Shown here in pieces: positions 5,911-43,283 of a DNA stretch of 59,837 nucleotides. Numbering within the stretch: the stretch's first letter is position 1; the number at the start of each line of letters is the position of its first letter. Origin of the DNA: an uncultured Prochlorococcus sp. (GTDB taxonomy: Bacteria; Cyanobacteriota; Cyanobacteriia; PCC-6307; Cyanobiaceae); NCBI GenBank assembly GCA_902537445.1, contig CACBBI010000006.1, positions 1 to 59,837 on the forward strand. The letters are read 5' to 3'. Position numbers and translations under genes: made by a program. The notes beneath the pieces were generated by a model, which saw only the letters and a program-made list of their open reading frames with translations, was not told the DNA's origin and ran no database searches.

Positions 5911-6423
5911 ATGCCAAACATAAATCTCATATATTACCTTCTTGCTGGCGGCATTTTTGGAGCTTTAGCTCTAAAAACAGGTATCCCTGCAGCTCCTCTT
6001 GCAGGGGCCTTAATAGGCGCAAGCATACTTAGCATAAGTGGCAAAGTCGATATTGCAGAGTGGCCAATAGGCACAAGAACATTTTTAGAAATCGGCATTG
6101 GAACAGTTATTGGTACATCATTAACCAAAGACTCATTAATGGATCTTCAAACCTTATGGAGGCCTGCTATTTTAATAACTTTTACTTTAGTTATTACAGG
6201 ATTAGCAATTGGATTATGGACAAGCAGATTACTTAATATCGATGTGATAACAACAATTCTTGGTGCAGCACCAGGAGGTATTAGCGGTATGAGTCTTGTA
6301 GGGTCAGAGTATGGAGTAGGAGCTGCAGTAGCTACCCTGCACGCAGTTAGGTTGATTACTGTGCTTCTAATTCTTCCTTTAGTTGTGAAATGCTTGAATA
6401 TATTTGGAGTAATTAAATCTTAA
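5911..6423 (+). CDS. AbrB-family membrane protein, single-repeat (half-length) form
   Basis: A hydrophobic protein of 170 aa with about five membrane segments. The sequence GALALKTGIPAAPLAGALIGA, then EIGIGTVIGTSLT and the glycine-rich GAAPGGISGMSLVG followed by ATLHAVRLITVLL, matches the AbrB/'ammonia monooxygenase'-annotated transporter family (PF05145-type). Typical bacterial members are about twice this length and are two tandem copies of this unit. This one is a single unit, so it probably works as a dimer or with a partner half encoded elsewhere. The substrate is unknown and ammonia oxidation should not be inferred. The start is ATG after an AT-rich promoter region. Confidence 0.75.
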   Translation: MPNINLIYYLLAGGIFGALALKTGIPAAPLAGALIGASILSISGKVDIAEWPIGTRTFLEIGIGTVIGTSLTKDSLMDLQTLWRPAILITFTLVITGLAIGLWTSRLLNIDVITTILGAAPGGISGMSLVGSEYGVGAAVATLHAVRLITVLLILPLVVKCLNIFGVIKS

Positions 6424-36503: not shown

Positions 36504-37661
36504 TTAAGAACGAACCTGGACAGGCATAACTAAATAAGTAAAAGAATTAAGATTATCATCTGGTACAAAAACAGCTGGAGTAGTTGCAATATTACACTTT
36601 AAAAGTACATTTTCAGAAGCAATAACTTTTAAACCTTCTAAAAGATATCTAACGTTAAATGCAATATCAAAATCTTCTCCAGAGTAAGAAACCGGTATTG
36701 ATTCATTTGCATTTCCAATATCTTGGGCATCTGCACTGATAGAAGCTAAATCTTTATTATCTAATTTAATCTTTACAACACTACTTTGCTGATCAGCTAA
36801 AACAGCAATTCTTTCAAGTGCATCAGTTAATTTTTTTGTATTGAAATTTAGAATTTTAGAAAAAGTATCAGGAATTAATTGTGAATAGTTAGGATAAGTT
36901 CCTTCAAGGGTTCTTGTCGTAATTATTTGACTAGAAGAAATAAATACTACTTGTCCTTTATCATAGAAAAGTTTTATTGAATTCTCAGAGCTTCTCAAAG
37001 ATACTAGTTTTTCAATTTCCCTTAATGATCTAGTTGGAATAGTTACTGACAAATTACCATCATTTGAAGATAAGTTTTCTTTATGTTCGATATGTTCTTC
37101 ATTACCAATTAAAGCGACGGCCAATCTATGACCATCTGTAGAAGCAGACTCTAAATAATTTGGTTTAAAAGTAAAGTTGACACCTGTAAGTAATTGCTTT
37201 GAGTCATCATTACTACTAGCAAAAATTGTAGACTTTAAAGCTTTTAAAAAAGAACTAGGATCAATATTCAAAGAAGTACCACTTTCAACAAATGGCAAAT
37301 TAGGATATTCATCAGAGGGAATACCTTTAAGGTTATAAGAACCTCTGTCACTTTTTATTAAAATATTATCTGAATTCCCATCAACTTCTAAAGAAACAGG
37401 AGTTTCATTAGGTAATTTGTTTACTATTTCAGATAAAAGTTTTGAAGGTATAGTAATAGCTCCACTATTTTTAACAGTTCCATCAAAAGAGGTTTGAATT
37501 CCTAAATTAAGGTCAAAGCCTGTCATGCTAATCTTATTAGTTCCTTCATCAGCTGTTAAAAGTATATTTGCAAGAATTGGATGCGTTGGTCTTGAGGCAA
37601 CTGCTTTGCTCACTAGTTGTATAGCATTATTTAATTCATTTTGATTACAAATAATTTCCAT
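36504..37661 (-). CDS. dnaN: DNA polymerase III sliding clamp (beta subunit)
   Basis: Ring-shaped processivity clamp of the replicative polymerase. Three clamp domains are evident: MEIICNQNELNNAIQLVSKA, VASRPTHPILANILLTADE, then the middle with TDGHRLAVALIG, and the final TYLVMPVQVRS, close to the usual MPVR-type C-terminus. The 385-aa length is normal. An ATG at 37661 is used. It reads away from the presumed origin region and heads a dnaN-PRC-purL-purF series. No dnaA is adjacent, unlike most bacteria. Confidence 0.97.
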   Translation of the reverse strand: MEIICNQNELNNAIQLVSKAVASRPTHPILANILLTADEGTNKISMTGFDLNLGIQTSFDGTVKNSGAITIPSKLLSEIVNKLPNETPVSLEVDGNSDNILIKSDRGSYNLKGIPSDEYPNLPFVESGTSLNIDPSSFLKALKSTIFASSNDDSKQLLTGVNFTFKPNYLESASTDGHRLAVALIGNEEHIEHKENLSSNDGNLSVTIPTRSLREIEKLVSLRSSENSIKLFYDKGQVVFISSSQIITTRTLEGTYPNYSQLIPDTFSKILNFNTKKLTDALERIAVLADQQSSVVKIKLDNKDLASISADAQDIGNANESIPVSYSGEDFDIAFNVRYLLEGLKVIASENVLLKCNIATTPAVFVPDDNLNSFTYLVMPVQVRS

Positions 37662-37686
37662 CGGAATTTGGAACTTTTACAAATAC

Positions 37687-37715
37687 AATATACTTTTTCC
37701 GTTAATTAAATTCAA
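37687..37715 (-). promoter_or_regulatory. Candidate sigma-70-type promoter for dnaN
   Basis: On the minus strand TTGAAT (37715-37710) and TATATT (37692-37687) are separated by 17 bp, a near-consensus bacterial promoter. Transcription would start near 37680, giving a leader of about 20 nt before the dnaN ATG. Confidence 0.5.
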
Positions 37716-37738
37716 TAAATTAATTTTTTACTTTTTTC

Positions 37739-37772
37739 TAATATATAAATAAATAATAAAATAAAAAATTTA
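37739..37772. other. 34-bp A/T-only run, candidate unwinding element
   Basis: Uninterrupted A/T from 37739 to 37772, immediately left of the TAG array and the first DnaA box. Its position fits a DNA unwinding element, but AT-rich intergenic DNA is common in this genome, so function is inferred from context. Confidence 0.5.
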
Positions 37773-37782
37773 GTAGTAGTAG
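37771..37782 (+). repeat. (TAG)4 array, DnaA-trio-like
   Basis: Four perfect TAG units (3'-GAT-5' read backwards) lie 4 bp from the first DnaA-box-like site and abut the A/T run. DnaA-trios of the bacterial basal unwinding system have the 3'-[G/A]A[T/A]-5' form between boxes and the unwinding site, so sequence and placement both match. Strand orientation relative to the box should be verified. Confidence 0.5.
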
Positions 37783-37786
37783 TGTT

Positions 37787-37804
37787 TGTGGAAACTGTGG
37801 AATT
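37787..37804 (-). promoter_or_regulatory. Pair of DnaA-box-like sites
   Basis: Two directly adjoining 9-mers: 37787-37795 TGTGGAAAC (8 of 9 to TGTGGAAAA, the complement of TTTTCCACA) and 37796-37804 TGTGGAATT (7 of 9). Both have the same orientation. Adjoining boxes suggest cooperative DnaA binding. Confidence 0.55.
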
Positions 37805-37849
37805 CTTAACTCAAATAGCTTGTCTGTATACTTTACGAAAATTAGAAAA

Positions 37850-37858
37850 TGTGGAAAA
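37850..37858 (-). promoter_or_regulatory. Perfect DnaA box
   Basis: TGTGGAAAA, the exact complement of the cyanobacterial DnaA box TTTTCCACA. Same orientation as the pair at 37787-37804. Confidence 0.65.
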
Positions 37859-37869
37859 AATTTTTTATG

Positions 37870-37947
37870 TGTTGAATAATTTTTACTTTATTCAAAAAAT
37901 TTAAATTTATTCAACAAATAGGATTACTTATTATGAATTTTTCAACA
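37870..37947. repeat. TTATTCAACA-like repeat family in the origin region
   Basis: Four copies: TGTTGAATAA at 37870-37879 (inverted), TTATTCAAAA at 37888-37897, TTATTCAACA at 37907-37916 and TTTTTCAACA at 37938-37947. The first and third form a perfect 10-bp inverted repeat, and the first and second an 8-bp one. A 7-bp hairpin (ATGAATT / AATTCAT, 37933-37953) encloses part of the last copy. They are distinct from the DnaA-box consensus. They may be weak boxes or sites for another protein. Confidence 0.6.
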
Positions 37948-37968
37948 ATTCATGTTTATTTATAATTG

Positions 37969-37977
37969 ATTTCCACA
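37969..37977 (+). promoter_or_regulatory. DnaA-box-like site, opposite orientation
   Basis: ATTTCCACA, 8 of 9 to TTTTCCACA, 20 bp beyond the thrC stop. It is inverted relative to the other three boxes, so the boxes bracket the TTATTCAACA repeats. Confidence 0.5.
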
Positions 37978-37996
37978 GACACTATTTTTTTTGATC

Positions 37997-39100
37997 TTAA
38001 TATCCTAAGATTTTAGTTATATTTTTTAATGAAGGTTCAATATTTTTCCTGAAAATAGCATCATTGTTTTTTATTGCGCAATCAGGATCTTTTAAGCCAT
38101 TTCCAGTAAGAACACAAACAATAGTCGATTCTTTTTGAATTCTATTTTTATTTTTAATCATCCCAGCAACTGATGCTGCACTAGCAGGTTCACAAAAAAT
38201 TCCCTCTTGGGCAAGGATTTTATAAGCATTGATTATTTCTTCATCTGTAACTGATTGAAAGTGTCCTTTACTTTCTTTTTTTACTTTTTTTGCTTTTTCT
38301 CTATTTACAGGATTCCCAATTCTTATTGCAGTAGCAATTGTTTCTGGATCTTTAACTATTATATTTTTTACTAATGGAGCAGAGCCTTCGGATTGAAAAC
38401 CCATCATAATTGGTAATTTCAAATTTCTTTTTATTTTTGTATATTCTTTAAACCCCATCCAATAAGCAGTTATATTTCCTGCATTACCCATTGGAATACA
38501 AAGCCAATCAGGAGCATCACCTAAGTCATCAACTATTTCAAAAGCTGCCGTCTTTTGTCCTTGTATTCGATATGGATTAACAGAATTAACAAGTTCTATA
38601 GGATGTTCCGAGGATAAATCTCTAACAATTTCAAGAGCCTTATCAAAGTTTCCATTAATAGATATTATCTCGGCGCCATACATTAGTGCTTGCGCAAGCT
38701 TTCCTTGTGCAACAAATCCTTCTGGGATTAAAACATAAGGTTTCAATCCTCCTCTCGAAGCATATGCAGCAGCAGCAGCAGAAGTGTTTCCAGTACTTGC
38801 ACAAATTACTGCTTCGCGGCCTTCTTCTTTTGCCTTGCTAATTGCCATAGTCATACCACGATCTTTAAAAGATCCTGTTGGATTAAGACCATCATATTTT
38901 AAAAAAACTTTTGTTCCATTTCCAATTAAGTCGCTAATTGACTCGCTTAGAATTAATGGTGTATTTCCTTCGTTGAGCGAAATAATTGGAGTTTTTTTTG
39001 TAACTGGGAGATATTGTTTATAAGCTTCTATTAGACCTGGCCATCTTTTTTTTCTGTAATTAATACCCAGTTTATTTTTGATTTTATTTAATAACACCAT
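37997..39100 (-). CDS. thrC: Threonine synthase
   Basis: PLP enzyme converting O-phosphohomoserine to threonine. The PLP lysine motif is [18 protein letters not shown]. Other signatures are [29 protein letters not shown] (phosphate-binding loop), and a C-terminal [13 protein letters not shown]. The 367-aa length fits the short bacterial form. It lies 5 bp downstream of the DUF1400 gene and at the end of the ABC1-DUF1400-thrC run. It reads toward the putative origin, i.e. against fork movement if that origin is correct. Confidence 0.95.
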
Positions 39101-41535: not shown

Positions 41536-41603
41536 AACTTTATATATTTAAAACCTTTATTTTTTTAAAAAAGAAGTTAATTTTTTTATATGGAAGATTT
41601 ATC

Positions 41604-43283
41604 ATGTTAATACAATTAAAAATAGAAAATTTTGCCTTAATAGAAATTATAGAAATTAATTTCGAAAAAGGTTTGAATATCATAACTGGGGATTCAGGTT
41701 CAGGAAAATCATTAATTTTGGATTCTTTAAATGCTTTATTTGGTGGATCTAATATACCTTTAAAACATTTAATACGTCCAGGAAAAGATTTTTGCGTTAT
41801 TGAGGCGATATTTTCTTCTTCTTCTCAAATTAATAATTGGTTAATTAGTAATGGTTTTGAAATAACTTCTTCAGAACTACAAATTAAAAGAAAATCTTAT
41901 AAAAAAAATAATAAAATCTTATCCAAATATAGCCTTAATGATTTATCAATTAATAGACAATTATTAGAAAAACTTGGACGATTTTTAATAGATTTTGCAG
42001 GTCAATCTGATACTTTTATCTTTGATTCTTTAGATAAGAGAAGATTAATTATTGATGACTTAAGTTCCCAAGAATCAAGAGATACCAGCGAAAGGATTAA
42101 AAGTATATGGGGAGAAACTAACGTTCTAAAAGGATTAATGGATGAAAAAATAGAACTTTCAAGGAATCAAGAAGAAAAAAACTTAGCAATTAAACACATG
42201 TTGAAGAGTTTAGAAGAAGCTGATTTAAATTCCAGTGAAGAAATTTTAGAATTAGAGTTATTAGAAAATAAACTTGTAAATAATCTAGCAATTAATAATT
42301 CAATTAAATCATCATTAGATAACTTAAATAATTTCAGTCATGATGAACCGTCAGTAACATTTTTGTTAAATCATTCAATAAAAATTTTAAATAAAGCAGC
42401 AGATTTCGATTTAAAGATTCAAAAATTTAGAGAGAAGTTATTAAATATCCATGCTGATGTTGAAGATTTAATTTTTGATCTAAACTCATATTTGCAGGAA
42501 ATTGAAAATTATGAATATAATCTTCCAGAAATACAAAAAAGACTATTTTTTTTAAAAAACTTAGAGAGAACTTTTTCATTAGAATTACCTCAATTAATTG
42601 AAAAGCGCGATCAACTAAAGACCTATGTTCAACAAAATGATCAAGATAATGAGATTTGCAGGATTAAAGCTCAAATTGAGAATTTACAAAGTAATTTAAA
42701 TTCTTTATTTATTATTCAATCTACTGAAAGAAAAAAAATTGCTAAACAGTTACAAAATTCAGTAATGTCGATTTTAAGCAATCTAGGTTTAGAAAATGCA
42801 AATTTTTCAATTCAATTTTCTGAATCCAAGCCTTCTGGAGATGGAATTGATGATATAAATTTTTTGTTTTCAGCTAATCCTGATCAGACGCTTGCTCCAT
42901 TATCAAATGTTATTTCTGGTGGAGAAATGTCAAGATTCTTGTTGGCTATTAAATCTAGTATTTCTAAAAAACCCAATACTTTCTTTTTAGATGAAATTGA
43001 TAGTGGTTTAAGTGGTAAATCTCTATTTTCTTTAGTTAAGCTCATAAAAGAAATTTCTAAAAATCAACAAGTTTTATGCATTACACATCAGCCATTCTTG
43101 GCTGCTAGGGGATTAGCTCATTTCAAAGTTAATAAAAACGTAATTAATGGAATAACTTATACTTCAATTGCAAAATTAACTACAAAAAATCAGAGAAAAA
43201 ATGAACTAATAGAACTTATAGGTGGAGGTTCTTGCGAAGTAAACGAATATGCTTCTAAACTTCTTGATCGCCCAGCTGCGTAA
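41604..43283 (+). CDS. recN: DNA repair protein RecN
   Basis: SMC-like ATPase for double-strand-break repair. N-terminal half-nucleotide site: GDSGSGKSLILDSLNALF (Walker A; the usual GETGAGKS becomes GDSGSGKS). The middle about 280 residues are coiled coil. The C-terminal part has the ABC signature VISGGEMSRFLLAIKS, Walker B TFFLDEIDSGLSG and a final His switch CITHQPFLAA. The 559-aa length is normal. The ATG is clear. A candidate -10 for uvrA follows after 17 bp. Confidence 0.95.
   Translation: MLIQLKIENFALIEIIEINFEKGLNIITGDSGSGKSLILDSLNALFGGSNIPLKHLIRPGKDFCVIEAIFSSSSQINNWLISNGFEITSSELQIKRKSYKKNNKILSKYSLNDLSINRQLLEKLGRFLIDFAGQSDTFIFDSLDKRRLIIDDLSSQESRDTSERIKSIWGETNVLKGLMDEKIELSRNQEEKNLAIKHMLKSLEEADLNSSEEILELELLENKLVNNLAINNSIKSSLDNLNNFSHDEPSVTFLLNHSIKILNKAADFDLKIQKFREKLLNIHADVEDLIFDLNSYLQEIENYEYNLPEIQKRLFFLKNLERTFSLELPQLIEKRDQLKTYVQQNDQDNEICRIKAQIENLQSNLNSLFIIQSTERKKIAKQLQNSVMSILSNLGLENANFSIQFSESKPSGDGIDDINFLFSANPDQTLAPLSNVISGGEMSRFLLAIKSSISKKPNTFFLDEIDSGLSGKSLFSLVKLIKEISKNQQVLCITHQPFLAARGLAHFKVNKNVINGITYTSIAKLTTKNQRKNELIELIGGGSCEVNEYASKLLDRPAA

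Follow-up and report, generated by a model that had tools for sequence, protein, structure and literature searches.

The gap between dnaN and thrC in the stretch of DNA analyzed here raises the question of where a Prochlorococcus chromosome starts to replicate and which bases DnaA would open there. The window, meaning the whole stretch of 59,837 nucleotides, is contig C6 of a draft genome of 1.12 Mb (57 contigs, 69.8% complete), and of the best 80 relatives of its dnaN, 78 are Prochlorococcus and 2 are uncultured Synechococcaceae, with 91-97% identity in the best segment. The Prochlorococcus origin has been placed between dnaN and threonine synthase from skew and DnaA boxes (PMC2836286), the numbering of closed picocyanobacterial genomes has been started 174 bp before dnaN, taken as their approximate origin (PMC7522525), and DoriC is described as finding cyanobacterial oriC usually beside dnaN (PMC6323995). 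Since an origin at this gap is already published, its place is known and the fine anatomy is the new contribution. We treat the gap as the predicted Prochlorococcus oriC and very probably the site where replication starts. A first-pass annotation had proposed an oriC with the element order of the bacterial basal unwinding system (BUS), and in substance this proposal holds, with tandem boxes, a 4-nt spacer, four trios and an A/T run in the required polarity. A script recovered each motif where it had been placed (A/T run, TAGx4, spacer, tandem 9-mers, the 37850-37858 box and the inverted box), including 34 A/T-only letters at 37739-37772 with C and G as flanks. The features are as follows, with "of 90" referring to the genus loci described below.

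36504 to 37661, minus strand: dnaN, DNA polymerase III beta clamp (TIGR00663, 329 bits, over the cut-off)
37662 to 37996, no strand: dnaN/thrC intergenic gap, predicted oriC, 335 bp (flanking-gene matches; Prochlorococcus origin flanks as published)
37739 to 37770, no strand: A/T-only tract beside the trios, putative unwinding region (composition; the 34-bp run is 37739-37772)
37771 to 37782, plus strand: four DnaA-trios, 5'-TAG-3' on the plus strand, which is 3'-GAT-5' read away from the boxes (script check; conservation)
37783 to 37786, no strand: 4-nt spacer TGTT between box and trios, of fixed length and free sequence (conservation)
37787 to 37795, minus strand: trio-proximal DnaA box GTTTCCACA (plus strand TGTGGAAAC), 1 mismatch to TTTTCCACA
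37796 to 37804, minus strand: second tandem DnaA box AATTCCACA (plus strand TGTGGAATT), 2 mismatches
37850 to 37858, minus strand: distal co-oriented box TTTTCCACA (plus strand TGTGGAAAA), perfect match at a conserved offset
37870 to 37878, minus strand: weak box-like site TATTCAACA, 2 mismatches, identical in 65 of 90
37908 to 37916, plus strand: weak inverted box-like site TATTCAACA, 2 mismatches, identical in 66 of 90
37939 to 37947, plus strand: inverted box-like site TTTTCAACA, 1 mismatch, identical in 80 of 90
37969 to 37977, plus strand: inverted DnaA box ATTTCCACA, 1 mismatch, identical in 77 of 90
37997 to 39100, minus strand: thrC, threonine synthase (TIGR00260, 322 bits, over the cut-off)

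Read toward dnaN, the distal half of the gap comprises the inverted box, two weaker inverted boxes, a weak forward box and TTTTCCACA, and the proximal half comprises 45 nt, AATTCCACA-GTTTCCACA, AACA, CTACTACTACTA, the A/T-only tract and dnaN, whose start lies 121 nt past the start of the trios. An intergenic cluster of DnaA boxes beside replication genes is a feature of oriC, and here four boxes with at most one mismatch lie within 335 bp with dnaN adjoining. The distal box lies, start to start, 63 bp from the trio-proximal box and 54 bp from the second tandem box. This is not the "minimal" oriC first proposed; there are seven box-like sites, three of which (37870-37878, 37908-37916 and 37939-37947) are weaker conserved boxes that had been overlooked. 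The gene for DnaA is not adjacent to the gap and is carried on contig C30 (locus L001). Between 37908 and 37977, the window also contains three inverted box-like sites, conserved in the genus, with centres 31 and 30 bp apart, or about three helical turns each.

The arrangement resembles a BUS in having tandem co-oriented boxes close to the trios (37787-37804, with the 4-nt spacer) and, where a BUS has at least three trios of the 3'-GAT-5' type immediately past the box on the appropriate strand, four exact ones. Since CTA on the dnaN-ward strand is 3'-GAT-5' on the other strand, these are consensus trios, and their strand and side match what a BUS requires given the published order of box, spacer and trio, with the trios on the 5'-tail. 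From this polarity, unwinding would be directed toward dnaN. Two details count against the explanation, namely that the spacer is A-rich rather than GC-rich and that the trio-proximal box is a better match (1 mismatch) than the upstream tandem box (2 mismatches), so that the better upstream match of a BUS is missing here; among published BUS modules, as far as the source describes them, the better upstream match is a tendency and not a requirement.

We compared the gap with 4000 dinucleotide shuffles of its 335 bp and found TAGx4 in none of them, at least four boxes with at most one mismatch in none, and the strict module, defined as a box with at most 2 mismatches followed by 4 nt and CTAx3, in none (0/4000 each). 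The 59.8-kb window contains (TAG/CTA)4 a single time, and a count over both strands of the closed relative G015 (1,738,790 bp) likewise gives one (CTA)4, located in the dnaN gap at base 48 of the record. The strict pattern has one place in the window and one in G015; a second G015 match only repeats it, in the 200 bases duplicated to account for circularity. In the 1.12-Mb draft itself, TTTCCACA-N4-CTACTACTA at up to 2 mismatches matched the gap only, while the reversed control gave 0 matches.

Simpler signals were set aside. The A/T run is present at the coordinates first given for it and is unremarkable by itself; runs of at least 34 bp number two in the window and 25 in G015 and are therefore ordinary, and we rejected the run as evidence. 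In the window's own genome, TTTTCCACA is not enriched (18 matches, with 16 when the pattern is reversed), and the eight densest clusters of boxes listed for G015 all lie away from the gap, so DnaA-box density alone was rejected as an origin finder. A published permissive BUS rule (PMC8287927), which we re-coded without the authors' ranking step, held in 3480 of the 4000 gap shuffles. It is thus informative only in strict form, and in this re-coded version it was rejected as a test in A/T-rich DNA. The same version gave about 7.3 matches per kb of A/T-rich chromosome. Since the rule is so frequent in shuffles and in A/T-rich chromosome, the 85% figure reported in PMC8287927 would gain from a composition control.

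Conservation in the genus was assessed in 90 distinct sequences out of 99 loci, the window included, with dnaN identity of at least 88% and no less than 400 nt upstream. An exact CTAx4 is present in 74 of the 90, and the remaining 16 each have a single base change affecting one trio. Spacer length is 4 nt in 90/90, with 18 different sequences. The boxes vary more: the trio-proximal box reads GTTCCCACA in 54/90 and GTTTCCACA in 13/90, the second tandem box reads AATTCCACA in 78/90, and the distal box reads TTTTACACA in 44/90, TTTTTCACA in 23/90 and TTTTCCACA in 9/90. The box at 37850-37858, initially singled out as perfect, is perfect in the window but in only 9/90 relatives, and a "perfect box" was rejected as a conserved feature. 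Across the 90 sequences, the spacings on the distal side shift by no more than 1 nt (44 or 45 nt; 109-111 nt), the distance from the trios to the dnaN start varies by 5 nt, and the A/T tract has a mean A+T of 0.98 (minimum 0.90, pure A/T in 45). A separate genus tally of 105 distinct sequences included 2 that were short, 99 that passed and four (L024, L066, L230 and L231) that failed with a changed trio. Nine of the 99 passing loci scored best off spacer 4, seven of them at 13, which is the upstream tandem box, and L075 and L099 at 1. One locus, L261, was taken from a motif match and is among the genus loci of this module tally and of the distal-box tally below.

The family set comprised 58 other genera with one genome each, 48 of which had an assessable dnaN gap. 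With thresholds of a box matching at least 7/9 and at least 2 CTA, 34/48 loci carry the module, and the spacer is 4 nt in 34/34, on a score that slightly favored 4. Of the remaining 14, 12 have a degenerate module on visual inspection, and L310 and L316 are without one. In L307, L308, L311, L331 and L334, the trio array reads CTACGACTACGG or CTACGACGACGG, with every other trio or more lacking the middle A. In L112-L141 and L292-L305, the trio-proximal box is often TTTCCTCA (A to T at the seventh position) and the preceding box is often near consensus. Loci L112-L141 and L252-L260 were chosen from motif matches and were excluded from conservation rates, serving for position beside dnaN; 27 of the 30 in L112-L141 lie beside dnaN, and the three without dnaN (L117, L122 and L124) were taken as chance matches. 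For the class, we used one dnaN gap from each of 18 other families, selected by dnaN rather than by motif, and found the module within 500 nt in 12/18, while L251 and L235 have it further up. Genome-wide, 176 of 289 class genomes contain the pattern at up to one mismatch, a count that misses variants, since many members of the window's own family fail one-mismatch patterns. Together, these comparisons bear out the expectation of conservation in close relatives, with the box-spacer-trio module kept in the genus, the family and other cyanobacterial families. In G059, dnaA, the module and dnaN follow in that order on one strand, and in G052 the module adjoins dnaA, away from dnaN; given these arrangements, the missing dnaA neighbor in Prochlorococcus would most simply be a loss.

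The cumulative GC skew of G015 traces a V, climbing from the gap to a peak near 996 kb and dropping to its minimum at 1,685,945 of 1,738,790, 53 kb before the gap; the detrended AT skew peaks at 5,961. The origin reading survived this check, as in this one closed relative the gap lies at the shift point within the flat bottom of the curve. That bottom is shallow and its minimum is 53 kb off the gap in the one chromosome, which counts against the explanation. The window has its own local cumulative GC-skew minimum near 41-42 kb (41536-41604), at a gene-direction switch about 4 kb from the gap, and this was likewise counted against.

The skew offset of G015 would suit an alternative in which the boxes serve DnaA-responsive regulation of dnaN (or of the thrC 3' side), the TAG array is an incidental microsatellite and the origin lies elsewhere. 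DnaA is thought likely to be a transcription regulator in cyanobacteria that replicate without it (PMC7198777), and a weak promoter-like site lies at 37715-37687, yet the scan gave 5 sites vs 5.0 expected. On the other hand, a slippage repeat would not hold a 4-nt spacer in 90/90 while the spacer letters vary, nor would it reappear in other families with box, spacer and trios in the same order. The positions between dnaA and dnaN (G059) or beside dnaA and away from dnaN (G052) also argue against regulation of dnaN, as does the published numbering of picocyanobacterial genomes from just before dnaN as the approximate origin (PMC7522525). We therefore consider regulation at this gap, with an origin elsewhere, very unlikely.

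The DnaA of this genome is a clear equivalog (TIGR00362) and matches the Bacillus subtilis DnaA chain 8btg with an E value of 7e-122, the core region aligning without gaps. We take 8btg to be the B. subtilis BUS complex. The B. subtilis residues N187, I190, K222, E223 and R264 correspond to N201, I204, K236, E237 and R278 here, and the oligomerization, ssDNA and base-capture residues of a BUS DnaA are thus represented by conserved equivalents. By homology, the BUS mechanism would operate here as well. DnaA, encoded elsewhere (contig C30), would bind the tandem boxes at 37787-37804, and the weaker boxes and the distal box at 37850-37858 would load further DnaA. Since the distal box is some six helical turns farther upstream, a loop of the DNA could bring it to the tandem boxes on the same face. 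Starting at the trio-proximal box, a DnaA oligomer would then grow over the 4-nt spacer of fixed length and along the plus-strand series of four 3'-GAT-5' trios, stretching and capturing that strand. The trios and the adjoining A/T tract would melt on the dnaN side, where the helicase would be loaded. Binding, melting, looping and helicase loading are all predicted steps of this scheme. In vitro, Synechococcus elongatus DnaA is reported to unwind its own scaffold of boxes and trios and to need the trios; its unwinding is also reported to occur without a need for ATP, which was counted against the explanation.

An origin at this gap could also open in the manner of the E. coli DUE, with any A/T-rich tract beside the boxes being enough and the TAG trios not being read as such. 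This would agree with a flanking tract that is at least 90% A/T in 90/90 and with degenerate NAN trios that occur nearly anywhere, as the 3480/4000 shuffles under the loose rule illustrate. Arrays like CTACGACTACGG in some family members mean that not every trio has a middle A, and some lineages with box arrays are without GAT trios. A/T content alone, on the other hand, would not conserve exact CTA triplets in fixed frame and spacing on an A/T-rich background, and the reported in vitro unwinding of S. elongatus required its trios. We regard a DUE mode that ignores the trios as very improbable. Judging from the sequence, it is highly probable that the gap is the Prochlorococcus chromosomal oriC opened by BUS-type action of DnaA.

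The distal box of this predicted BUS-type origin keeps a conserved offset, which the first-pass annotation had overlooked. A box with at most one mismatch lies 61-65 bp upstream of the trio-proximal box in 92/95 genus modules (62-63 bp in 90), 23/37 family modules and 13/14 class modules (62-65 bp in these 13). No other 5-bp bin tested contains more than one locus, apart from 71-75 in the class, with 12/14 owing to the leading box of a distal pair, and the family bin 81-85, with 9/37. The distal box is absent in 14/37 family modules, which counts against the explanation; the class module without it, L246, is a doubtful one that needs TTTTAGAAA and two CTA to pass the loose rule. This test used 700 nt, with L235 left out because its module is too far up and L237, L240 and L244 giving no module; twelve genus and eleven family loci were also left out, having no module by the rule or less than 110 nt upstream. 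Among the family modules of L292-L340, 9/37 have a second box with at most one mismatch 81-85 bp upstream, about two turns past the 63-bp position.

Among the matches listed, 48 class genomes have both the trio pattern and a distal box pair, and in 36 of these 48 the tandem pair is on the same strand with its second box at an offset of 61-65 bp from the trio-proximal box, 63 bp in 20 of them; 7 of the 36 are also in the 18-gap class set. In the other 12 (G351, G561, G565, G413, G402, G394, G427, G421, G468, G499, G389 and G380), the listed pair is on another contig, far away or on the opposite strand. Between the distal and tandem boxes, the 45 nt show little similarity (mean identity 0.34 in 19 sequences vs 0.26 when shuffled). 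At the B. subtilis origin, an engineered distal box is reported to work only from 44 bp, in helical phase for three turns (PMC6669920), and the 54 bp to the upstream tandem box would fit that phase. The cyanobacterial distal box may act by looping. No paper combining "helical phasing" with cyanobacteria was found among the open-access literature matches listed.

Some cyanobacteria appear to have lost the trios. A match to DnaA domain IV is missing from 6/289 class genomes, and the distal box pair is present in 0/6 of these vs 205/289 overall. One of the six, G442, has a trio-pattern match. This genome (family f31, 3.8 Mb, one contig, 99% complete) has neither a DnaA domain IV match nor a dnaN match at E 0.001, and the missing matches could be due to masking or divergence. 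Across family f31, the distal box pair is present in 16/18 genomes and the trio pattern in 3/18. We searched 30 genomes, from families chosen for lacking the pattern or dnaA (f29, f31, f33-f35 and f40), and found no good module in their 29 dnaN gaps (L262-L290). Several dnaA-bearing genomes among these have long DnaA-box arrays without GAT trios, and the five dnaA-less gaps have no module and at most one box-like site. In L269, L276 and L277, the 54+9 = 63-bp spacing is intact and the CTA repeats are absent, a loss that is to be read with the caveat that degenerate NAN trios may persist; L271 and L277 have short CTA remnants.

DnaA-independent replication has been described in several cyanobacteria, some with dnaA and some without (PMC7198777), and the trio-poor families (f29, f31, f34 and f35) may, at a guess, be these lineages. 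We tentatively suggest, as a possibility to which we give somewhat less than an even chance, that cyanobacterial oriC is a rigid device (a distal box about six turns or 63 bp away, a 4-nt spacer and GAT trios, with the sequence between them free) and that DnaA-independent lineages are natural trio mutants in which the box scaffold persists, in some with its 63-bp spacing, until both are lost once dnaA is gone. If true, the trio module would be a sequence marker of DnaA dependence, and the 63-bp phasing rule would extend the engineered B. subtilis origin findings to nature. The comparison suggests two testable rules, 63-bp phasing and trio loss as a mark of DnaA-independent replication.

Earlier placements of the origin beside dnaN rest on gene order, skew and DnaA boxes, as their sources describe them. 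What is new here is a specific predicted melting site with a falsifiable design, consisting of the boxes, the 4-nt spacer, four trios and a phased distal box. The published Prochlorococcus predictions concern the identical dnaN-threonine synthase gap (PMC2836286, PMC7522525), while the trio module, fixed spacer and 63-bp distal box are not described in the available portions of those papers or of PMC6323995; the module may already be in the papers' supplementary tables or in DoriC entries. No paper combining "DnaA-trio" with "Synechocystis" was found in the open-access literature. Further sources were PMC10721633, PMC10225481, PMC4674748, PMC2921402 and PMC6478999.

Among known systems, the S. 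elongatus oriC is likewise a cyanobacterial origin near dnaN, with box and trio unwinding reported in vitro by others, whereas the window comes from an A/T-rich Prochlorococcus, and the likeness is one of description and not of origin sequence. The B. subtilis oriC BUS (DnaA-box#6/#7 and trios), as published, shares the two co-oriented boxes, the short spacer, the 3'-GAT-5' trios running away from the boxes, a co-oriented distal box in compatible helical phase and the conserved DnaA core residues. It differs in that here dnaA is on another contig, A predominates in the spacer, the boxes are degenerate versions of the TTTTCCACA type with the trio-proximal one the better match, and the distal box lies 54 bp from the upstream tandem box vs the 44 bp reported for box#3 in B. 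subtilis. Altogether, these comparisons suggest that the gap is a real origin of a known kind, for which the BUS reading is well supported by sequence.
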